A stretch of 64,000 nt of DNA from Paludibacter sp. (GTDB lineage: Bacteria > Bacteroidota > Bacteroidia > Bacteroidales > Paludibacteraceae): positions 124,001 to 188,000 of the forward strand of contig JAFLKK010000002.1 in NCBI GenBank assembly GCA_019163375.1. The letters are read 5' to 3'. The notes beneath the pieces are model-generated. The model made no database searches and was not told the origin of the DNA. It worked only from the letters and a program-made list of their open reading frames with translations. Position numbers and translations under genes: made by a program. This document shows positions 24,570 through 41,276 of this stretch, piece after piece. Each line of letters opens with the position of its first letter. Position 1 is the first letter of the stretch.

Positions 24570-25264
24570 GATGGTGAATTATTAAGTTAGACAATGCCCA
24601 AACTACTCTTGTTTGGATATTACATAACACCCACCATTTAAAATGGTTTTGAATGTTCATTTTTTTTAAAGAATAAAGGGGTAAATTAAAGTGAGTTCGA
24701 TATAATAAGAACCGGTCAGAATATAATGCCGTTTATCATAAAGAATATAACCTGCCACAGTTTATTGAATAGACCCCAATGAAAAACTTCGGCATCACAT
24801 CATCGGGCGATGAAACGTTCCCGCAAAACTGCGACATGACATCATCGGGTGATGAAGTGTTCCCGCAAAACTGCGACATGACATCATCGGGTGATGAAGT
24901 GTTCCCGCAAAACTGCGGCATGACATCATCGGGTGATGAAGTGTTCCCGCAAAACTTCGACAGAGCATCATCGATCGATGAAGTGCTCCCGCAAAACTGC
25001 GGCGGGGTTTCAGGCACGCCGGATGCCTTGTCGCAAAACTGCGCGAAGGTTTCAGGGATGCCGGAAGCACATTGCAAAACTTCTGCAAGGTTTCAGGCGA
25101 GCCGGAAGCACTGTTGCAAAACTGCGGGATGGTTTCAGGGATGCCGGAAGCATGTTGCAAAACTTCTGCAAAGTTTCGGGCACGCCGGATGTTCTGCCGC
25201 ACTTTTGCGACAGCCGATTGTTTGTCTTTTTCGTCTCTTGTGCTAATCAATACTGCTACATTCA
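24570..25264. other. Gene-free interval containing a tandem-repeat array
   Basis: Most of the interval is the array at 24794-25211. Frames through it on both strands give repetitive peptides, but two units are one base shorter, which breaks the frames, so I do not call a gene. 24570-24793 is plain AT-rich sequence. Confidence 0.6.
24794..25211. repeat. Ten-unit tandem array (41/42 bp) with covarying palindromes
   Basis: Units start at 24794, 24836, 24878, 24920, 24962, 25004, 25046, 25087, 25129 and 25170. Each has a small palindrome near its front and a conserved CGCAAAACTGCG-like end. Units 1-5 use a CATC...GATG stem (for example TCATCGGGTGATGA, TCATCGATCGATGA); units 6-10 use a GGC/GCC stem at the same place (TTCAGGCGAGCCGGAA). 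Units 7 and 9 are 41 bp, so a 14-residue protein repeat is not kept throughout. Confidence 0.85.
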
Positions 25265-27310
25265 TTAGTTCTGAAAATTTTTCTTGAACAGAATTGGCAA
25301 TATAAATGATTCACTTGTACTTTGACCATCTTTTTGACCGGGTATCCATTTGGGTATTGATTTGACAACCGAGATGGCTTCTTTCTCTAGGTAATTTACA
25401 ATTGATTTAGTAGAGTGAACTTGTGGTGAGATACTATTCGGGCTAGAATAGCTAATGCCTATTGCAGTAACTACTATCTTCTCCAATAGAGTAGCAGTTT
25501 CGTTCACTTTGTTCAATATATGAACGTTATCAACCAGACCCAGTTCGTTAACCGTAAATCCTACTAAGATTTGACCTCTTTGGTCATTTTCCATAGCTCT
25601 AACCGGATATTTTATATTTCGTGCAAGATAAGAACCGAGAGCATTAAATCCTCCCGGATATTCGGCTTTCCTGTCGGTTGCATTCAACGAACTTGTAGTA
25701 ACTATATTTCCACTTGCATCTCCGAATTTTATTGGCATCATGTAACGCGCACTTACAGGTACCCCGTTTTGCTTGCCGGGAATCCAGTTTGTCATTAAAT
25801 TAATCACTCGTAACGCTTCCTTATCGCACTCGGGACTTAAGCCTCTTAGTACTTTTGCTTGTTCAATTTTGCCCAGGGTGTTCACTACAAAACCGACAAT
25901 AACATGCCCTTGAATATTTTTATTTTTTTCAGCTTCGGGATAAATCAAATTCTTTTTCAAAAAATTCATTAACTCAACATCACATCCCTGGTATTCCGGC
26001 ATTTTTTCAACAACATCATAGATTATGTTTCCTAATGAATCCTTTTCTAACCTGACTTCTGCTTTCGAAACCTGGTCCTCTTTTTTACTAATAGCAATGA
26101 TAACTCCATTTGCTGCAGCTGGACCATACTTTTCAATAAGCTCCTTTTTTTCCTTCTCCTTTTTTGGAACAATGGTATTCAAGGAAGTCAATTTGGAAAA
26201 ATTCAACCATTTTGACTTGAATGACATTGGCAGTATTTGTCCATCTAATACAATTTGTAAGCTATCGAATTTTAGGTTAGAACTATGCCTGCCAAGTTCT
26301 CCCTCAATTTTAAAAACTATTGGTAGTGTATAATATATATTTTCCTTTTTTCCATTTATTTCGCCGGGTATCCAATCCGGTATTTGAGAAAGTACTCTCA
26401 ATGCTTCCCTGTCCAATCCCGGACTAACACTAGTTACAACTTTTGGATCTTTCACCTTGCCCGACCGATCAATAATAAACTGAACTATTACTTTCCCTTG
26501 ATGCCCATTTTCCAGGTCAATAATTGGATATTTTATGTGCTGTGCGAGATAGTTCATTAAAGCTATATCACCACCCGGAAATTGCGGTACTTTGCTGACA
26601 TCTTTGTAGGTATACCCATTATATACTATTTTACACTTTGATGTGTCATTGTGTAAATTCATGATGTCATAAGTGTTCAATAAAAGCACTCCATTACGTG
26701 CAACTTTACCGTATTGCTCAATGAGTTTGTTTTGGGCGGTTTCAGGGAAAGGCTTCAAAATGAAACCGGTATCAATTTGCTCGCTATTGATAACTTCAAG
26801 ATTAAATTTTAGTGGTAGCTTGATGCTGTCAATAACAATGAGCGTACTGTCAGTCATTTGCCAGTTTTCTCCGGCATTTTCTTCAGGAGTATATTTGAAC
26901 GTCACTTGCATAACCCTATAAACAGGCACTTTCTTGCCATTTAGTTCGCCGGGAATCCATCTAGGAAACGAGTTGATAACACGCAATGCCTCCTCATCAA
27001 GGCTAGGCGATAACTTCTTCACCACCTTTGCCTGAATAATCTGACCTATGCTACTAACAACAAACTGTATATTTACTTTTCCTTCCAGCTTATTCCGTTG
27101 AGCATCCTCCGGATATTTTATATTTTGCTGAATAAATTCAATTCGTGCAGCGTTACCTCCCGGGAATTCAGGTTCTTTGTCGACAACAGCCAGAATTGTA
27201 TCATTCTCGGCAATACTGTTCGCGTTTTCGCCACCCAAAGGGCTTGTCTTAGCATTGATACCAATTACCAGAAGAAGTATAGCAGCTATAAGTAGTTGAG
27301 GTCTGTTCAT
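25265..27310 (-). CDS. Four-TonB_C protein with plug-like modules
   Basis: 681 residues with signal peptide (MNRPQLLIAAILLLVIGINA). TonB C-terminal domains lie at about 43-140, 236-335, 431-529 and 545-676, each with the pattern KYP...GKV...FVV...G...LDxEALRV...WIPG. Between them (about 156-215 and 350-409) are short segments shaped like a TonB-receptor plug end: VIDSIKLP...EQYGKVARNGVLL and VLDGQILP...EKYGPAAANGVII. The last TonB_C has an inserted stretch (about 604-638). No N-terminal anchor beyond the signal and no proline-rich stalk, so it is unlike a standard energy transducer. Function unknown. Confidence 0.8.
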   Translation of the reverse strand: MNRPQLLIAAILLLVIGINAKTSPLGGENANSIAENDTILAVVDKEPEFPGGNAARIEFIQQNIKYPEDAQRNKLEGKVNIQFVVSSIGQIIQAKVVKKLSPSLDEEALRVINSFPRWIPGELNGKKVPVYRVMQVTFKYTPEENAGENWQMTDSTLIVIDSIKLPLKFNLEVINSEQIDTGFILKPFPETAQNKLIEQYGKVARNGVLLLNTYDIMNLHNDTSKCKIVYNGYTYKDVSKVPQFPGGDIALMNYLAQHIKYPIIDLENGHQGKVIVQFIIDRSGKVKDPKVVTSVSPGLDREALRVLSQIPDWIPGEINGKKENIYYTLPIVFKIEGELGRHSSNLKFDSLQIVLDGQILPMSFKSKWLNFSKLTSLNTIVPKKEKEKKELIEKYGPAAANGVIIAISKKEDQVSKAEVRLEKDSLGNIIYDVVEKMPEYQGCDVELMNFLKKNLIYPEAEKNKNIQGHVIVGFVVNTLGKIEQAKVLRGLSPECDKEALRVINLMTNWIPGKQNGVPVSARYMMPIKFGDASGNIVTTSSLNATDRKAEYPGGFNALGSYLARNIKYPVRAMENDQRGQILVGFTVNELGLVDNVHILNKVNETATLLEKIVVTAIGISYSSPNSISPQVHSTKSIVNYLEKEAISVVKSIPKWIPGQKDGQSTSESFILPILFKKNFQN

Positions 27311-27393
27311 TTTATAATGAGAATTTAGGTAGTGATACTTTAGTTCAAATTAATCGGGCATAAACATATACCGATGTAAAAATATTACGACGC

Positions 27394-28620
27394 TTACTTT
27401 TTTTCTACTTCTTTTGTCCCAATCAACACCACACCGTTCATAGCATCTTTGCCATAGTCTTTTGTTAGTTGCTTGATGACTTCTTTTGTTTTTGGTTCAA
27501 GAACCTTGTACGATGTAAGGTTAGCGTAACTGAGCCATGAAAGATCAAAAACCGATGGTAACCTGATACCATCGAGCATCACAACTGTTTTCTCATTTGG
27601 CTTCCATGCTGGTTTTTCGGTGGCAGGAACATCCAGTGTGAAGTTAACCGGCATGGTAACAACAATATTCACTTTTTCGTTGCATAGTGTGCCGGGAATC
27701 CAGTTGGGCAGGGTGTTGATTACGCGGATGGCTTCTTTGTCAAGATAATAATCGAGCGATTGAACCACTTTCACATCATTTATCTTTCCTGTTTTCTCTA
27801 CGGTAAATCGTACCATCACTTTTCCTTCGGTCTTCAGGCGCTTTGGCACAAACGGATATTGGATACTGTCGGCAATGTGTTTCAAAAGCAGGTCGTTTCC
27901 GCCTTCAAACTTCGGAATAGTGGCTGCTTCTTTACATCCTGTGGAATCGGCCAAAGCGTAATACATTTCGTATTTGTTGCTTTTGATCAACACTACTCCG
28001 TCGGCAGCTTGTTTGCCATATTCTTTCATCAGCCTTTCTTTTTCTTGTTCGGGAAAGGGCTTAAATACTTTTATATCATTAAATTTTCCAAGGTTTAGGA
28101 TGTCGATAGTAAAGTTTTCCGGCATTTTTACGTCATCGATGATCACCAGTGTTTTTTCATTCACATCCCAGTTGGTACTATCAATGGCTACGTATTTAAA
28201 GGTAATTGGCAATGTCATGTTTACGGCCACATTCAACTCGTTCTGAATGCCCGGTATCCATGCCGGAAATGAATTTACCACGCGCAATGCTTCTTTGTCT
28301 AATAAAGGAGATACGTTTCTGGCTACTTTTGCATTTTCAACCAAACCTTGTTTGTTGATTACAAACTGTACTATAACCTTACCCTCCTGTTTCTTTTTAT
28401 ATGCTTCGGCAGGGTACTTTGTGTTCCGGTAAATGTAATTCAACAGGGCTTTGTCGCCACCCGGAAACTTTGGCATACTATCAACGATGGAATAAACTGA
28501 ATCCTGTGTTGGTGTCACTGCCTGTTGTTGGGCTTTTGTTGTAAAAGAGAAAGTAAATAATAGCAGAAGAGCGATGCTAAATTTAAAAACATTGATGTTG
28601 GAAGTTGGTGTGTAATTCAT
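27394..28620 (-). CDS. Two-TonB_C protein alternating with plug-like modules
   Basis: 408 residues. An N-terminal signal or anchor (FKFSIALLLLFTFSFTTKAQ) is followed by TonB_C (44-142), plug-like (155-213, VIIDDVKMP...KEYGKQAADGVVLI), TonB_C (229-328) and plug-like (342-402, VMLDGIRLP...KDYGKDAMNGVVLI). The order is strictly alternating. Same strand and family as its neighbours. A minus-strand -7-like TATTTTTG (28691-28698) is upstream. Confidence 0.8.
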   Translation of the reverse strand: MNYTPTSNINVFKFSIALLLLFTFSFTTKAQQQAVTPTQDSVYSIVDSMPKFPGGDKALLNYIYRNTKYPAEAYKKKQEGKVIVQFVINKQGLVENAKVARNVSPLLDKEALRVVNSFPAWIPGIQNELNVAVNMTLPITFKYVAIDSTNWDVNEKTLVIIDDVKMPENFTIDILNLGKFNDIKVFKPFPEQEKERLMKEYGKQAADGVVLIKSNKYEMYYALADSTGCKEAATIPKFEGGNDLLLKHIADSIQYPFVPKRLKTEGKVMVRFTVEKTGKINDVKVVQSLDYYLDKEAIRVINTLPNWIPGTLCNEKVNIVVTMPVNFTLDVPATEKPAWKPNEKTVVMLDGIRLPSVFDLSWLSYANLTSYKVLEPKTKEVIKQLTKDYGKDAMNGVVLIGTKEVEKK

Positions 28621-28690
28621 AATGCAACTTTAATAGTATTTTATTTCTGGTGTAAATACCTGTGAATAATTAATTGTAAATTCTCGGAAA

Positions 28691-28698
28691 CAAAAATA
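28691..28698 (-). promoter_or_regulatory. Putative minus-strand -7 box
   Basis: TATTTTTG on the minus strand, 71 bases from the start at 28620. Confidence 0.4.
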
Positions 28699-28731
28699 CA
28701 AATAAGATTTGGTTTACGTGCATATACTAAA

Positions 28732-28752
28732 GGCTTCGCTCAGTGCGAAGCC
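28732..28752 (-). terminator. Possible terminator after the short TonB gene
   Basis: GGCTTCG (28732-28738) pairs with CGAAGCC (28746-28752); the minus strand then reads TTTAGTAT. Weak U tract. Confidence 0.4.
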
Positions 28753-28794
28753 CTTAATGCTAATTGATTTATAGTTTTTTTAGAATGCTGACTG

Positions 28795-29280
28795 TTATTG
28801 AAGTCTGAATACAACCGGTAATGTATAGCGCACCGATACTTTTTTGCCACCTTGTTCCCCCGGTTTCCAATAGCCGAGCAGCTTTACTACCCGCAATGCT
28901 TCCTTATCGAGATTTGGGTCTAAGCTGCGAAGAATTTGTACATCTTCTACCTTACCACTTTTGGAAACCACAAACCCAAGAATCACTTTTCCTTGTATTC
29001 TGCTCTCTTGCGCTACAGTTGGATATTTAATATGCTTCGAAAGAAACTCCATGAGTGCTTGGTCACCTCCGGGATATTCCGGCATTTTTTCCACCACATC
29101 ATAAATTCCATTTGTAGATGCAGAGTGGGTAATTGTAGTTTTGGGTTGTTCTGTCTTCGCTTTCAGAACGATTTTAGGTTCCTCTTTTTGTCTTGTAACT
29201 TTGTAGATAAAAAATGCGGCAATAAGAATAACAAGAACGGCAATTATTGTTTTTGTTGGTGCCTTTTTTTCTTCTTCCAT
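28795..29280 (-). CDS. Energy transducer TonB family protein (classical layout)
   Basis: 161 residues: cytoplasmic start MEEEKKAPTK, one uncleaved transmembrane helix (11-27), a short polar stretch, then a single TonB C-terminal domain (about 60-160) with YPGGDQALMEF, IQGKVILGFVV, LDKEALRVV and VSVRYTLPVVF. This is the only protein of the cluster with the classical inner-membrane TonB layout, though the stalk is short. It probably contacts an outer-membrane receptor; no ExbB/ExbD gene is in the window. Confidence 0.82.
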   Translation of the reverse strand: MEEEKKAPTKTIIAVLVILIAAFFIYKVTRQKEEPKIVLKAKTEQPKTTITHSASTNGIYDVVEKMPEYPGGDQALMEFLSKHIKYPTVAQESRIQGKVILGFVVSKSGKVEDVQILRSLDPNLDKEALRVVKLLGYWKPGEQGGKKVSVRYTLPVVFRLQ

Positions 29281-29323
29281 AATGATTGATTTTGATGGTT
29301 ATAAATCTATTTATAAAAACAGG

Positions 29324-30598
29324 CTATTTCTTTTTCTCTTTTTTCGCGTCGAGTTCTTCTTTTATCTCTTTTATTCGATATTCTGTCGCATTGTAGTAGG
29401 AGCCGATTCCACTTTGGATTTTGCCCAACTCAGTTGATGGTCGTGTGGTCATAAACAGATTGTAGTAGGTCAGCGCTTCTTCGGGCTTCTTCAATTCATG
29501 GTCGTAAACGCCACCGATAATATACAGTAGGCTTTTTTGTTCAGGTTTTAATTTAGAACTTATTTTCAGGTATTTTATCCTTTCGGGATTGTTGAAAAGT
29601 AATTCGTAACCTTTGGCAATGCCGTAGTTGTAATTATACAGTACCGAATCCTTAGGTGTTATTTTGTCCAATCCTCGCTTCAAATAAGCAATTCCCTCCT
29701 GCTGATGTCCGCTCAGAATAGCTGCTTTGCCCAGGTAATAGTACACAGTAACATTGTCCGAATCTTTTTTAAACGATTGTTTGAGGTGAAAATAAGCATC
29801 CGGATTTTCTTTATTGGCAAAATAACTTATCCCTAAATAAAAATGAGTGATAAACGAACTGTCGCCTTGTTGATACAATTTATTTAGGCGATAAATTGCC
29901 CGTGTGTGATTCTTTGTCATGCAAAGTCCAATTCCATTGTACTGATTTATCGTCTGATTGGACGAATCGATTTGTAAATACCTATTTGTGTAATAAAGTA
30001 GTGGGTCATATTTACTTTGTTGTAGAAAGATGTTCGACAATTTACTAAGCGTGCTATAATCTTCAGGATTGTACTGTAATGCTTTAGAGTAACAGTACAT
30101 CGACGAGTCGTTTTTCTGTAGTTGCCCGTAACAATCGCCCAGTATTGGATATAATACCGACAGCGAATCTTTCTTCAAAATTGGCAAAGCAAAGTTTATG
30201 GTCGATTTCCATTCTCGGAGTTTAAACATACTGTTCATGTAATTCAACTGCGCGAACCGGTTATTTGGTGCCGATTGAAGTGCCATGAAATAAAAGAACT
30301 TCGATTTGGAATGATTTCCGGATAGTTGATAACTCTCTGCCAGTTCATTGACTGCCGAAATATTGGTTGGATTCTGACGCACAATTTCTTCCAGCAATAC
30401 TATGGCAGATTTGTACTGCGCAATATTCTTATAGCACTTAGCCTTTAGAAAATCCAGTTCGGTCGATTTCTTTTCCTTCGAAATAAGCTGTATGGCTAAC
30501 TCGTAGTCGTAATTTTTTAGCGCATTTTGTATGGCGTTGGTTTGTGCGTGAAGAATGGAGAAACAGCATGTAAACAAGATAAATAGTGTTTTTTTCAT
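29324..30598 (-). CDS. Secreted tetratricopeptide-repeat protein
   Basis: 424 residues with signal peptide (MKKTLFILFTCCFSILHAQ). TPR-type helical pairs run from about 20 to 400 (for example YKSAIVLLEEIVRQNPTNISAVNELAESY, AYFHLKQSFKKDSDNVTVYYYLGKAA, EEALTYYNLFMTTRP). Ends in a charged tail (EELDAKKEKKK). A periplasmic scaffold is likely. It lies between two TonB-family genes, 19 and 43 bases away, so it is probably part of the same transcript. Confidence 0.82.
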   Translation of the reverse strand: MKKTLFILFTCCFSILHAQTNAIQNALKNYDYELAIQLISKEKKSTELDFLKAKCYKNIAQYKSAIVLLEEIVRQNPTNISAVNELAESYQLSGNHSKSKFFYFMALQSAPNNRFAQLNYMNSMFKLREWKSTINFALPILKKDSLSVLYPILGDCYGQLQKNDSSMYCYSKALQYNPEDYSTLSKLSNIFLQQSKYDPLLYYTNRYLQIDSSNQTINQYNGIGLCMTKNHTRAIYRLNKLYQQGDSSFITHFYLGISYFANKENPDAYFHLKQSFKKDSDNVTVYYYLGKAAILSGHQQEGIAYLKRGLDKITPKDSVLYNYNYGIAKGYELLFNNPERIKYLKISSKLKPEQKSLLYIIGGVYDHELKKPEEALTYYNLFMTTRPSTELGKIQSGIGSYYNATEYRIKEIKEELDAKKEKKK

Positions 30599-30616
30599 AG
30601 GAATGGTTTAAGTGTG

Positions 30617-31315
30617 CTATTTTTTTAACGTGATAAGAACAATCCCATTTTCAGCTTCGGGTCCATATTTGGAAATATTTTCATCTTTCCTGGCTTCAAG
30701 TGGATCTATTATTTTGATTGACTGAATAGTTTCCTCATTTATACTTTTAATATCAAATTCCTTTGGTTGTGATTTTCCATCCACAATATACAGAAGTGTT
30801 TTGTCTGATTCCGCGTTTTTTGTTCCAAGAACTACCGGGACTGAACTATTTTGAGCTTTGAATACAACCGGCAAAATATAAAAAACAGCTACTTTTTCTC
30901 CATTTTGTTCTCCGGGTAGCCACTTGGGCATTAATTTAAGTACACGTATAGCTTCATTATCTAATAGAGGGTCAGCACTTCGAAGAATCTTAAAGTCTCC
31001 CACTTTGCCATCGGCATTAATCACAAACTGAACAATTACCTTTCCCTGAATTCCAAATTCCTGTGCCCTAACCGGATATTTGATATTCATACAAAGAAAA
31101 CGCATTAATTCACTCTCTCCATTTGGGAATTGGGGCATTTTATCAACTGCAGTGTATATGGTATCTTTGATTGTTTTTGCAGAGTCAATCTTTGTTGCGT
31201 CCTTTTTCTTTGCTACGGAAGTTTGAGCATTGCCCGAAAGTACAAATGCTAAAGCCAATGGGGCAATGAGTAAGCATTTATTCATCCCCGATTTTAATTT
31301 TGCTAGTTGATTCAT
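30617..31315 (-). CDS. TonB_C plus plug-like protein, M56 C-terminus relative
   Basis: 232 residues. A signal/anchor (LLIAPLALAFVLSGNAQT) leads into TonB_C (55-153, IQGKVIVQFVI, WLPGEQNGEKVAV) and a plug-like tail (172-230, LLYIVDGKSQP...SKYGPEAENGIVLIT). The start closely resembles the join region of the M56 protein upstream (SLIVPLALALVVSSNAQT), so it looks like a duplicate of that protein's C-terminal half without the peptidase. A minus-strand -7 box lies at 31345-31352. Confidence 0.8.
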   Translation of the reverse strand: MNQLAKLKSGMNKCLLIAPLALAFVLSGNAQTSVAKKKDATKIDSAKTIKDTIYTAVDKMPQFPNGESELMRFLCMNIKYPVRAQEFGIQGKVIVQFVINADGKVGDFKILRSADPLLDNEAIRVLKLMPKWLPGEQNGEKVAVFYILPVVFKAQNSSVPVVLGTKNAESDKTLLYIVDGKSQPKEFDIKSINEETIQSIKIIDPLEARKDENISKYGPEAENGIVLITLKK

Positions 31316-31344
31316 GGTAGTTCCTTTTTTTAAATTAAGAAACG

Positions 31345-31352
31345 CAAATATA
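31345..31352 (-). promoter_or_regulatory. Putative minus-strand -7 box
   Basis: TATATTTG on the minus strand, 30 bases upstream of the start at 31315. Implies an internal promoter separate from blaI-M56. Confidence 0.5.
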
Positions 31353-31456
31353 CGGTTATTTTAAGAATCAACAAATGATAATGCTAAAAAATCAGCAGCA
31401 ATCAACATGACGCACTGTGAAAACCTTACTCGGTTTAATCTTTTAGATGCAGAGAA

Positions 31457-31490
31457 TAGTCCGCGTTGATAAATCAATCAACACGGACTA
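31457..31490 (-). terminator. Hairpin after the M56 gene
   Basis: TAGTCCGCGTTGAT (31457-31470) pairs with ATCAACACGGACTA (31477-31490) with one mismatch, 16 bases beyond the M56 stop. The minus strand after the stem lacks a long U tract. Confidence 0.5.
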
Positions 31491-31505
31491 TATTTGGATT
31501 TATTC

Positions 31506-33125
31506 CTATTTGGCTGGAAACTGATAGTTGGTTGTAATCAACACCACACCATTTTTCCCTTTGTCTCCGTAAAGTTTTGTAGCTGATGCATCTTTAAGTA
31601 CTGATATTGATTTAATGTTTGCTGGAATAAGTAAATCTGCCTCACTTTTCGAAGCTTCCTTTCCATCAATCATCATCAAAGGGTTTGCACCAGCAGGTAA
31701 ATTGTTGAATTTTACGCCAGACTCTTCTTTCCTGGCTCCATATCCTACCACTACTATCGGGTTTTCATTGGGGCCTAAAGCAGGTGCAGGAGTTGGAGCA
31801 TCATCTGCCAATTTGAATACTACCGGCATAGTATAGCGAACAGCTACTTTTTTGTCGTTTTGTTCACCTGGAATAAAATCTGGAAATGTGCTTATTACCC
31901 GTAGTGCTTCCTTGTCCAAACTCGGATCTACGGAGCGTAAAATTAGAGGATTTATTACTTTTCCTGCAGAGCTAACAACAAAACTGAGAATCACTTTACC
32001 TTGAATGTTATTTTCTTGAGCTATAACCGGGTATCTGATATTTCTTGATAAATGTGCCATCATCTCGCCCTCTCCTCCCGGGTATTGAGGCATTTTTTCT
32101 ACTACATCCCAGGTTTTTTCGGTTTCTTCGTTTTCTACCACCGTAACAGGGTCAGTTAGTTCTGCCGAACTTTTAGCAGGGGCTATCAGCGTTTTTTTCT
32201 CAGTAGCTTTTACTTCTTTTGTCGTAGTCGTGGTCAAGGCTTTTTTTGCCTTATTGATAACTGTTTGTGCATTGCTCGAAACAACCAGCGCCAATGCCAA
32301 TGGAACGATAAGCGAGTATTTCAGTAAATTCGCTTTGGTAGATTTTTTTTGATTCATCATAATAATACGTTTTTTTAAGGGTGACACATTAAATTTATTT
32401 CCAAGCTTATGCTCGGGAGTTTGATAAGACAATTGCAACAGATGATATTGATAGGTTTGCGAATCAAAACCCGATTCGATAACCTTGTTGTCAGCCAGAA
32501 ATTCTAGATTTTGTCGGATTTCACGCTTCAGCAACCAGGTGGCAGGATTCAACCAAAGAATGATGGTCAGAACTTCACTCACCAACACATCAAAACTGTG
32601 TCCCTGACGAACATGCGTCAACTCATGCGCTAAAATTTCTTTTGTTTCGTGCTCGTTATGCAACTCGGGATTCATAAATACCGACCCGAAAAACGAAAAC
32701 GGTGTGACTTCTTTTTCGATGGCAATGATTCGTGTGTTTTGCACCATTTTTACTGTTCCATGTAGGCGGATGCGAAGAATTGACGCAAGTTGCAGGATAA
32801 ACCGAACCAAAAGTATCAGAACTACCAAACCGTAAATAGCCATTGAAATATTTCCGAGGCTGAAAATGGATGTTTCACGTACTGCAGTTACTGTAAATTC
32901 TGGTAAGGTGGCATAATTTACAATCAATTTTTGAACAGGCTCTTGTTTCTGCAGCCAGCTCTCGACCGATAGAAATGGATATACAAACGAAAGCAATATG
33001 CTGAACAGCATATAATACCGACGGGTTTTCCAAAAAGTATCCCCGGCAAAAAATAATCGATAGAACAAGTAAAACAAAGCTATCGCAATGTTCACTTCTA
33101 GAAAATACATGAGTGCGTCGTTCAT
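31506..33125 (-). CDS. M56 (BlaR1-type) peptidase fused to TonB_C and plug
   Basis: 539 residues. Four membrane helices and the M56 zinc peptidase occupy about 1-255, with HELTH at 167-171 and the downstream Glu208. A further helix (270-287) leads to TonB_C (338-438) and a plug-like end with VVVGYGARKEESG (458-470), MMIDGKEA and KLYGDKGKNGVVLITT. M56/BlaR1 proteins sense an outside signal and cleave a BlaI repressor; here the sensor part is replaced by TonB_C and receptor-plug modules. The start overlaps the blaI stop by ATGA, so the two are translationally coupled. Confidence 0.88.
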   Translation of the reverse strand: MNDALMYFLEVNIAIALFYLFYRLFFAGDTFWKTRRYYMLFSILLSFVYPFLSVESWLQKQEPVQKLIVNYATLPEFTVTAVRETSIFSLGNISMAIYGLVVLILLVRFILQLASILRIRLHGTVKMVQNTRIIAIEKEVTPFSFFGSVFMNPELHNEHETKEILAHELTHVRQGHSFDVLVSEVLTIILWLNPATWLLKREIRQNLEFLADNKVIESGFDSQTYQYHLLQLSYQTPEHKLGNKFNVSPLKKRIIMMNQKKSTKANLLKYSLIVPLALALVVSSNAQTVINKAKKALTTTTTKEVKATEKKTLIAPAKSSAELTDPVTVVENEETEKTWDVVEKMPQYPGGEGEMMAHLSRNIRYPVIAQENNIQGKVILSFVVSSAGKVINPLILRSVDPSLDKEALRVISTFPDFIPGEQNDKKVAVRYTMPVVFKLADDAPTPAPALGPNENPIVVVGYGARKEESGVKFNNLPAGANPLMMIDGKEASKSEADLLIPANIKSISVLKDASATKLYGDKGKNGVVLITTNYQFPAK

Positions 33126-33478
33126 TTTTTCTCAATTAGTTTAATGATTTCCTGTAATTCTTCAGCTGAAATTTTTTGTTTCTCTACAAAGTAGCTCACC
33201 ATTTCTTTGTACGAATTGTCGAAGTAGTTTTGCACTACGCTCGTCATAAATTTGGATTTGTACTCGCTCTCTTCCACCATTGCGCTGTACTCGTAGGTAT
33301 TGCCATAGCGGGTGCTTTTTACATATCCTTTTCGTTCCAGATTTTTTATAATCGATGCCACCGTGGTGTAGGGTGGGGTAGGTTCATCCATTTTTTGGAT
33401 ATAATCTTTTATAAATCCTTTTCCATGTTGCCAGATAATCAGCATCATTTCTTCTTCTTGATTTGTTAGCTTTTCCAT
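33122..33478 (-). CDS. BlaI/MecI/CopY family repressor
   Basis: 118 residues from MEKLTNQEEEMM. The winged helix (LTNQEEEMMLIIWQHGKGFIKDYIQ, TVASIIKNLERKGYVKS, GNTYEYSAM) is typical of BlaI-type repressors, followed by a helical dimer region. The partner M56 gene overlaps its stop by 4 bases. A TTG start six codons upstream (33496) is possible but less likely. Operator-like sequence TAACGAAACTTAGTA (33530-33544) lies upstream, related to the palindromes at 35074-35108. Confidence 0.92.
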   Translation of the reverse strand: MEKLTNQEEEMMLIIWQHGKGFIKDYIQKMDEPTPPYTTVASIIKNLERKGYVKSTRYGNTYEYSAMVEESEYKSKFMTSVVQNYFDNSYKEMVSYFVEKQKISAEELQEIIKLIEKK

Positions 33479-33529
33479 ATTTTCTATTGTTTTCAATTTC
33501 TTATCTTTGTGTTCCTTTATAGATACTTC

Positions 33530-33544
33530 TAACGAAACTTAGTA
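33530..33544. promoter_or_regulatory. Degenerate operator-like site upstream of blaI
   Basis: TAACGAAACTTAGTA shares ACGAAA and part of the second half with the palindromes at 35074-35108. Suggests autoregulation; match is partial. Confidence 0.35.
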
Positions 33545-33584
33545 AGCCTGAAGATAATTATGTTTCTTTTGAATTTCGTCCTCT

Positions 33585-34964
33585 TTATTGATTCTTTAAA
33601 AGAGTATCCAATGTCTTTCTTAAATCATTATCTGAAGGTCTTTGGGCTTGTGAATTAATTAGTTTCCCGGCTTTGTCAATTAATACAAATGTTGGGATTC
33701 CTATAATTTGATATGCCTTTGCAACATTAGACTCAATCCCTCCTGTTGTAATAAGGCTTAAACCATCCGCCTTACTCTCTTTCACTACTTTCTCCCAACT
33801 CTCTTTATTTTCATCGATAGAGATACTTATAAATACTATATCTTTTCCTTTATAATCCGATTGCAGTTTTATATAACTTGGCATTTCTTGTCTACACGGG
33901 CCACACCATGTTGCCCAAAAATCGAGATACACATATTTTCCTTTGAAATCAGTTAGCGAATAGTTGGTGCCGTTAATATCGGCGCATGTGAAACCGGGAG
34001 CTTCTTTCCCTGATGTCAATAAAAGCTTCCTCGTGTAAATCTTTCGTATTTCCCTTGCATAGGTAGAATCGGTATTGTTTTTTTTGAAATACTCTTTCTG
34101 CTTTTCGAAGTGGTCAGCACCTTCAAATTCTAACTTCATTTTCGTATTCTCAAAAACTAAATATTCTTTAAGCTTTTGATTCTTTATTTCGTCTATTACT
34201 TTTAATGTTGCGTTTGAATAAGCATGTGGTAACTTTGACTCCAAAGAATCCATTTTTGCCAAAATAAATCTCGTTTTTACATTTATATAGTATTGTAAGA
34301 AACTTCTGTAGCTGGAGATATATAAATATTTATCATTCTCAATGGCGATTTTATTAAAAAAGTGATAATAACTTGTATCTTTAACGTTATTTTGAAGTCC
34401 GAGTACTGTTTTCAATGCAAAGGCACTATAAGATAACGATTCCTTTTCGTACTCAAAGAAGATAGGATCAACCTTGTTAGTAATTGTTAGTTTTTCAAAA
34501 TACTTTTGATATGCATCGTAAGTTGAATCGATATATTTTGTTGCAATCTCCAAAGGTTGCGTGTATACAAATCGATGATTAAAGTTTCTGGTTGCAATTG
34601 AAATTGAATCAAGAATTCTATTTTCAGTTGCTCCTTTTCCTTCGTATCTTATTGTGTTGCCAAAATTAGTTGCATCAAAAGATATCTTTAAAGAATAGTC
34701 GGGAGCAAGAAAAATATCTTTTTGGGCTTGTTCATACTTTAGAGTTTTGAAACAGGCGTTTTCTGTTTGAATGGTCTGATTAAACCCTCCATTAATCAGA
34801 TGAATGGTATCAAATGAGTTGGAGATTTTGAAATCATTAACAAGTAGTGGCGTTTTGTTGAATTTTTCAATATTACCACTTAATGTAGCTGTCTTGTTTT
34901 TCTGAAATGAGGAAAAGAACAAGATGAAGATCAGTCCAAGAAGAATACTTTTTTTCATTTTCAA
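33585..34964 (-). CDS. TlpA-like thiol-disulfide oxidoreductase
   Basis: 459 residues. A signal sequence (MKMKKSILLGLIFILFFSS) is followed by a long helical/beta N-terminal region and a C-terminal thioredoxin domain with the active site WATWCGPCRQEMP (WCGPC 353-357) and cis-Pro loop GIPTFVLID. Such DUF4369/TlpA proteins reduce periplasmic disulfides. Its promoter is overlaid by two operator-like palindromes, suggesting control by the neighbouring BlaI. Faces away from the subtilase gene. Confidence 0.88.
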   Translation of the reverse strand: MKMKKSILLGLIFILFFSSFQKNKTATLSGNIEKFNKTPLLVNDFKISNSFDTIHLINGGFNQTIQTENACFKTLKYEQAQKDIFLAPDYSLKISFDATNFGNTIRYEGKGATENRILDSISIATRNFNHRFVYTQPLEIATKYIDSTYDAYQKYFEKLTITNKVDPIFFEYEKESLSYSAFALKTVLGLQNNVKDTSYYHFFNKIAIENDKYLYISSYRSFLQYYINVKTRFILAKMDSLESKLPHAYSNATLKVIDEIKNQKLKEYLVFENTKMKLEFEGADHFEKQKEYFKKNNTDSTYAREIRKIYTRKLLLTSGKEAPGFTCADINGTNYSLTDFKGKYVYLDFWATWCGPCRQEMPSYIKLQSDYKGKDIVFISISIDENKESWEKVVKESKADGLSLITTGGIESNVAKAYQIIGIPTFVLIDKAGKLINSQAQRPSDNDLRKTLDTLLKNQ

Positions 34965-35073: not shown

Positions 35074-35108
35074 TACGAATACTTCGCAAATCTACGAAAG
35101 TTTCGTAG
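35074..35108 (-). promoter_or_regulatory. Promoter with two operator-like palindromes
   Basis: The minus-strand -7 box TAGATTTG spans 35087-35094. CTACGAAA-G-TTTCGTAG (35092-35108) is a perfect palindrome on its upstream side and TACGAATACTTCGCA (35074-35088) is an imperfect relative over the expected start site. A repressor bound to both would block the TlpA-like gene. Confidence 0.6.
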
Positions 35109-41244: not shown

Positions 41245-41276
41245 TGCACATTTCGACTTGATTTACAGTTGTAGCA

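Follow-up and report, generated by a model that had tools for sequence, protein, structure and literature searches.

In Bacteroidota, TonB-dependent receptors bring many nutrients into the cell. How a cell of this phylum monitors that import is, to our knowledge, not settled, and a locus in Paludibacter sp. raises the question of whether a protease-controlled repressor could do so. The locus lies in a 64,000-nucleotide stretch of contig JAFLKK010000002.1 (assembly GCA_019163375.1, positions 124,001 to 188,000), which is referred to here as the window and whose own numbering is used throughout. It comprises the eight genes of a presumed operon on the minus strand, 25265-34964, with a gene for a thioredoxin-like protein first and the gene for p681 last; all genes, domains and the operator-like element given below are on this strand. 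Within the run, a gene for a BlaI-type repressor adjoins one for an M56 membrane protease, and the sensor of this protease appears to be built from parts of the TonB system. The original prediction placed BlaI and M56 in the same run as a cluster of proteins in which TonB C-terminal domains (TonB_C) alternate with receptor-plug-like segments. That they share a run is correct, but the run begins upstream of blaI, at the thioredoxin-like gene.

The repressor gene (33122-33496; Pfam Penicillinase_R, 5.7e-31) is followed by that of the M56, BlaR1-like protease (31506-33125; Pfam M56 6e-14, TonB_C 4.1e-18), whose HExxH motif (H167, E168 and H171; 32613-32627) is invariant in 25 aligned sequences, that of the window included. 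The rest of the protein holds a TonB_C domain at residues 339-440 (31806-32111; Pfam and our own TonB_C model), a TonB-box-like motif, IVVVGYG, at residues 457-463 (31737-31757), and a module resembling the C-terminal half of a receptor plug, here called a half-plug, at residues 479-534 (31524-31691). A structure model of the protein, with a mean predicted local distance difference test (pLDDT) of 77, matches the BlaR1 structure 8exp (E 4e-5), the TonB C-terminal domain bound to FoxA (6i97_D, E 1e-4) and RagA/SusC (6sml; E 0.1, probability 1.00, 46% identity over 57 columns), and these three matches were located by sequence to residues 159-274, about 357-439 and about 475-533, respectively. 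Structure prediction of the modules, one of the checks first proposed for this locus, thus shows plug likeness with the M56 model. This match by structure rests on that model, since a Foldseek search with the model of a second protein of the run, p408, gave TonB domains and no receptor plug among the 50 matches listed. A penicillin-binding (class D-like) domain was not found in the M56 protein, for which Pfam gives M56, TonB_C, a near-cut-off Plug match and two weak sub-cut-off matches. The gene therefore appears to encode a BlaR1-like membrane protease with its sensor replaced by TonB_C, a box motif and a half-plug.

Are the plug-like modules truly derived from receptors? Six of them were found by profile models in four genes of the run, and in the positions after TonB_C, where they had been predicted. 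The module of the M56 protein scores 23.3 bits against Pfam Plug in a whole-protein scan (cut-off 23.9), 25.3 bits against PF07715 when scanned alone, which is above the cut-off, and 46.3 bits against the SusC signature TIGR04057 (cut-off 46.2), while the other five window modules gave no Pfam plug match at E<=1 in the whole-protein scan. Two models containing no window rows, the rows of both having originally been gathered with a window-seeded model, recognise all six modules at 16 to 86 bits, with shuffled proteins scoring at most 4.1. A model of SusC plugs only, built from those 5 of 12 fetched plug regions of this genome that were extracted by a regular expression, gives 57 bits for the M56 protein, 22 for p232, 10.4 and 10.8 for p408, and 11.7 and 4.6 for p681; because of this last score, the second half-plug of p681 is not convincing alone. 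In profile comparisons, 32 modules cover the last 57 of the 126 columns of the five SusC plugs (hhalign probability 99.0, pair E 5.5e-18), and the same profile stays under 1% against alignments of TonB_C, BlaI and M56. A profile of 45 of the 65 modules found has 22 matches in the PDB at E<=1. Every one of the 20 below 1e-3 is a TonB-dependent receptor (SusC, RagA, enterobactin or colicin I receptor), and the remaining two have E of about 0.6; scanned singly, 19 of these 45 match PF07715 at E<=0.1. The genome as a whole has 57 plug matches, 56 of them above the cut-off and the M56 protein among them. Homology to receptor plugs thus holds, but only for the C-terminal half, as the N-terminal half of the plug is not present and Pfam finds no beta-barrel family in these proteins. 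Judged by these profiles, the modules are C-terminal half-plugs of the SusC/RagA type; that of the M56 protein is nearest to receptors, and those of the tandem proteins are the most derived.

The TonB_C domains themselves are distributed as originally described. Five genes, all at the positions first given for them, carry nine such domains (4, 2, 1, 1 and 1) by our window-seeded TonB_C model, and Pfam TonB_C scores far above its cut-off in each gene. The M56 protein has the order M56-T-p, where T is TonB_C and p is a half-plug. It is followed by p232 (30617-31315), with the order T-p (TonB_C 30851-31156; half-plug 30620-30805), and, beyond the gene for a TPR protein (29324-30598; Pfam TPR), by p161 (28795-29280; Pfam TonB_C 2.5e-21), which by hydropathy has an N-terminal hydrophobic anchor, a linker of about 30 residues and one TonB_C (28798-29103). 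The next protein, p408 (27394-28620), is T-p-T-p, with TonB_C domains at 28189-28494 and 27631-27936 and half-plugs at 27973-28161 and 27409-27597. The last, the 681-residue p681 (25265-27310), is T-p-T-p-T-T, with TonB_C domains at 26888-27193, 26303-26608, 25715-26020 and 25277-25687 and half-plugs at 26669-26854 and 26081-26269, the second being the most diverged. An insertion interrupts the fourth TonB_C of p681, so that it is matched in two pieces. The TonB_C positions given here are those of our own model; each half-plug was placed by our own half-plug model and the SusC-only model, and Pfam also supports TonB_C in p408 and p681. Both partners are thus fused in one protein, as had been proposed, and some M56 proteins add a TonB-box-like motif. 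By hydropathy, p408 and p681 each start like a signal peptide and contain no second strongly hydrophobic 19-mer. No proline-rich linker was seen by eye in the window proteins, and Pfam identifies none of the eight genes as exbB or exbD, while the canonical TonB of this genome, encoded elsewhere, follows ExbB-, ExbD- and ExbD-family genes. A second and simpler TonB_C cluster of this genome, on contig C5 (L025), consists of four neighbouring genes with one TonB_C each and a near-identical N-terminus of about 45 residues.

The origin of p232 can be traced within the run. It aligns nearly end to end with residues 257-531 of the M56 protein, the last transmembrane helix included, and its first 52 residues score 101 against M56, compared with a maximum of 55 in 500 shuffles. 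From this alignment p232 is read as a detached duplicate of the protease's own sensor half, beginning at residue 257, and at least one product of the operon is therefore a copy of the sensor. The copied helix could serve p232 as a signal peptide.

A similar combination is found in relatives, for which the sample consisted of the best 80 loci listed for a TonB_C-rich query and 20 loci hand-picked for long open reading frames and coverage. Since these loci were selected, counts among the resulting 84 and 82 M56 proteins are not prevalences, and loci added later are left out of them. The blaI gene lies directly upstream (within 120 bp) of 79 of the 84 distinct M56 proteins; TonB_C is present in 82, largely by selection, and a half-plug as well in 36. 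Other receptor parts also occur: among eight M56 proteins of relatives that were scanned, five add CarbopepD_reg_2, presumably the N-terminal extension of SusC-type receptors, and in one (L081) Plug is matched four times (whole-protein E 2.6e-26), together with one CarbopepD_reg_2 and three TonB_C. In some M56-TonB_C proteins the C-terminus is a type IX secretion sorting domain (Por_Secre_tail, scoring above the cut-off in L170 and L159 and seen by eye in L103). Such a domain is odd on an inner-membrane protease, and the periplasmic part may perhaps be cut free and exported.

The segment IVVVGYGARK, between the TonB_C and the half-plug of the window's M56 protein, resembles the openings of SusC plugs in this genome (EEVVVVGYG, DEVVVVGYG), which we take to be the TonB box in this phylum. 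The regular expression VVGY[GA], set after the motif had been seen, matches the periplasmic part of 15 of the 82 sampled M56-TonB_C proteins, against 0.07 on average and a maximum of 2 in shuffled periplasmic parts. Because the sampled sequences are related to one another, a Fisher test on these counts overstates the significance. It also matches 2 of 2501 open reading frames in which none of our four models scored, one of the two resembling a receptor plug fragment. The motif stands before the first TonB_C in nine of the 15 proteins, between TonB_C domains in three, inside a TonB_C in two (L054, L055) and after the last in one. Looser box-like insertions inside TonB_C are seen in p681 (IVVTAIG by motif reading, 25457-25477, within the insertion of its fourth TonB_C) and in L154 (VVVTAYA). 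A box that shifts position and is yet retained suggests either selection on the motif or its repeated capture.

What would such a sensor control? Sequences upstream of blaI in 82 distinct stretches were compared, with dyads picked by eye, and two types emerged. The first, AACTAA-N4-TTAGTT, often in two copies about 20 bp apart, is found at many Bacteroidota loci outside the window's genus. The second, a TACGAA/TTCGTA pair around TAnnTTTG, presumably the -7 element of this phylum, is found in the genus of the window and in some neighbours. In several stretches, that of the window's blaI included, neither dyad stands directly upstream of blaI, and an operator at that place was accordingly rejected for the window. 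The site instead lies upstream of the thioredoxin-like gene (33585-34964; signal-peptide-like start; Pfam Redoxin, AhpC-TSA and Thioredoxin_8, of the TlpA/ResA type), at 35074-35107. There, two TACGAA/TTCGTA-type dyads flank TAGATTTG, which we assume to be -7-like, in an exact match to the pattern upstream of relatives' blaI. This 34-bp double dyad has one exact place in the window (0.00 expected), and the 4.66-Mb genome has no other even when up to 3 mismatches are allowed. Among 48 genomes of the genus, 24 have the site, at one place each (on both strands of the place in many), and the reversed control pattern has a match in one. All 24 sites lie ahead of blaI/M56: in 22 loci blaI is first and M56 next, and in L176 and the window (L174) an open reading frame with a thioredoxin domain comes first. 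When 36 genomes of the genus were divided by the presence of an M56 match better than 1e-45, a cut chosen afterwards, the site was found in 18 of the 19 genomes with such a match and in none of the 17 others. The simplest reading of this distribution is a dedicated BlaI with a single target, to which its binding is predicted. Another candidate operator, ACANNTGT, was rejected with 18 matches against 19.8 expected. The genome also has a second blaI with two M56 genes, on contig C1 (L051); AACTAA-N4-TTAGTT stands ahead of this blaI as well, and our models find neither TonB_C nor half-plug in the periplasmic parts of those M56 proteins.

Taken together, a signal-relay role, one of two roles first suggested for the cluster, is plausible. 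The reading that we tentatively favour, at rather less than an even chance, is that the eight genes are co-transcribed under a BlaI/M56 proteolytic relay that reads the engagement of TonB with its receptors, in which built-in ligands compete and free sensor copies act as feedback or as adaptors. At rest, the promoter would be blocked by BlaI bound to the double dyad (35074-35107). The M56 sensor, with its TonB_C, box motif and half-plug, would read the engagement of TonB with receptors, a possible cue being the TonB boxes that receptors expose during transport, and the built-in box and half-plug would be internal ligands in competition with those borne by receptors. Engagement of the sensor would lead the M56 zinc protease to cleave BlaI, which would free the operon from repression. 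Its induced products would be the exported module copies p232, p408 and p681, the anchored TonB_C protein p161, the TPR protein and the thioredoxin-like protein, of which the free copies may titrate or bridge the partners of the sensor. A broader proposal, doubtful as it stands, is that BlaI/M56 relays throughout Bacteroidota sense TonB-dependent transport directly. TonB_C would be the reader, many members would add a decoy box and half-plug, the activity of the protease would be set by competition between internal and receptor ligands, and soluble sensor copies secreted from the induced operon would provide feedback in this genus.

Several observations weigh against the relay reading. Many sampled M56 proteins lack the supposed internal ligands, as 45 of the 84 contain no half-plug beside their one or two TonB_C, and 67 of the 82 M56-TonB_C proteins have no box by the regular expression. 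The linker carrying the box in the window's M56 protein (residues 442-478) is disordered in the model, with pLDDT below 50; pairing of the box with the TonB_C of the same chain was rejected on this ground and is not supported. A linker of about 48 residues in the M56 protein may also be too short to reach an outer-membrane receptor. One genome (G004) has an M56 match, apparently truncated, and yet no site. The classical BlaI operator has the core TACANNTGTA, which gives one chance-level match in the window, at 41264, and none near the operon. The ligand, the cleavage of BlaI and its binding to DNA are, moreover, steps that we infer. Finally, the tie between alternating proteins and BlaI/M56 that the original prediction drew is real in this window, where blaI adjoins M56, but it is not strict across relatives. 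Proteins in which at least two TonB_C alternate with two half-plugs were examined at twelve distinct loci; five have blaI and M56 as well (the window, L054, L055, L058 and L068=L077), and in seven (L071=L075, L074, L076=L202, L198, L199, L200 and L201) the stretches examined contain neither. Alternating proteins occur in four genomes (G005, G009, G022 and G024) that lack both the site and any M56 match better than 1e-45, so the exported proteins do not require this switch.

These last observations favour an alternative possibility, in which the locus serves chiefly to make the exported TonB_C/half-plug proteins. They would be decoys, brakes or adaptors that act on receptor TonB boxes or on TonB and deliver no energy, and BlaI/M56 would just set their amount, in some genomes and in response to some envelope cue. 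It fits this alternative that p408 and p681 have no strongly hydrophobic 19-mer apart from their signal-peptide-like starts and that no exbB or exbD lies among the eight genes. In two of the seven loci without the switch (L198 and L199), a homologue of the TPR gene stands beside the T-p-T-p gene, and TPR homologues occur in the M56 loci L054, L057, L058, L061 and L067 as well. The TPR gene and the tandem protein gene look like a unit that is able to exist without the switch, and perhaps represent the older core of the system. However, L199 and L074 lie near contig ends, so that in L199 M56 may be missing through assembly. The same modules, moreover, are found on the M56 proteins themselves and are therefore also part of the switch. 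We regard the decoy or adaptor explanation as rather unlikely.

A second alternative is that this is an ordinary BlaI/M56 switch for cell-wall or beta-lactam stress, in which TonB_C and the half-plug serve generally as scaffolds or for peptide binding in the periplasm and have no link to TonB transport. BlaI/M56 is a beta-lactam relay in Staphylococcus (PMC7593790, in excerpt), and the scarcity of the box among sampled M56 proteins is compatible with such a switch. Against it stand the missing penicillin-binding domain, the origin of box motif and half-plug in one and the same receptor class, and the finding that Pfam identifies no beta-lactamase among the eight genes behind the site. This explanation is clearly unlikely. 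A third possibility, which we judge improbable, is domain shuffling and local duplication that produced the alternation without a dedicated function. Copy numbers do vary widely, the 84 M56 proteins showing 11 different pairings of TonB_C count with half-plug count, and the second half-plug of p681 is badly diverged; yet four other genomes encode proteins that retain the T-p-T-p order and are 51-54% identical to p408, and the one operator-like site is conserved. Self-assembly, the other role first suggested, in which strand addition would join the TonB_C of one molecule to the box or half-plug of its neighbour and so build periplasmic chains, is very improbable: both partners do alternate within one chain and box-like motifs occur even inside TonB_C (L054, L055 and p681), but p408 has no box by the regular expression, its AlphaFold model has a predicted TM score (pTM) of 0.49 with a mean pLDDT of 82, the box linker of the M56 model is disordered, and nothing was found in support of the role.

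The locus resembles several known systems while differing from each. As in BlaR1-BlaI and MecR1-MecI, a BlaI-type repressor stands beside a membrane zinc protease of the M56 family whose C-terminal domain is extracytoplasmic, a likeness borne out by the 8exp match; here, however, the penicillin-binding sensor gives way to TonB parts, the operator-like sequence differs, and the operon holds copies of the sensor. The modules share the C-terminal TonB_C fold of TonB energy transducers (6i97_D is the best PDB match of the p408 model), but there are up to four TonB_C per chain, p408 and p681 have a signal-peptide-like start only, and neither a proline-rich linker nor exbB/exbD accompanies them. With SusC/RagA receptors the proteins share the C-terminal plug half, preceded in the M56 protein by a TonB-box-like motif, whereas the barrel and the N-terminal plug half are absent here. 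Cell-surface signalling, in which a TonB-dependent receptor acts through an anti-sigma factor on an extracytoplasmic function (ECF) sigma factor, likewise couples receptor state to transcription by regulated proteolysis (PMC7593790, in excerpt), as the present relay would; here the pair is BlaI/M56 and the receptor-derived parts are in the protease itself. Both receptor-driven cell-surface signalling and BlaR1-BlaI proteolysis are known paradigms (PMC7593790, in excerpt). A Porphyromonas gingivalis gene of the blaI family, whose locus-tag neighbour is an M56 gene, is under-expressed in excess hemin, with a log fold change of -1.74 (PMC10470040, in excerpt).

While BlaI/M56, TonB_C and plugs are already known, their combination as a sensor appears to be new. 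No description of a TonB-part sensor on M56, the half-plug module, a built-in box, alternating exported proteins or the single operator-like site was found in the open-access literature, as far as its excerpts extend; most subscription papers and preprints lie outside it, and absence in print is not proven. A BlaR1-like protease with a sensor taken from two interacting partners of the TonB system, in a small set of genes behind a single conserved operator-like site, is a directly testable candidate for monitoring of import. The relay, if real, would be a pathway from transport to transcription separate from sigma/anti-sigma cell-surface signalling. The locus also cautions that BlaI/M56 pairs in this phylum should not be read as beta-lactam sensors by default. 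Just downstream of p681, at 24783-25191, the window also contains a tandem repeat array of 41-42 bp units that is open in several frames on both strands.

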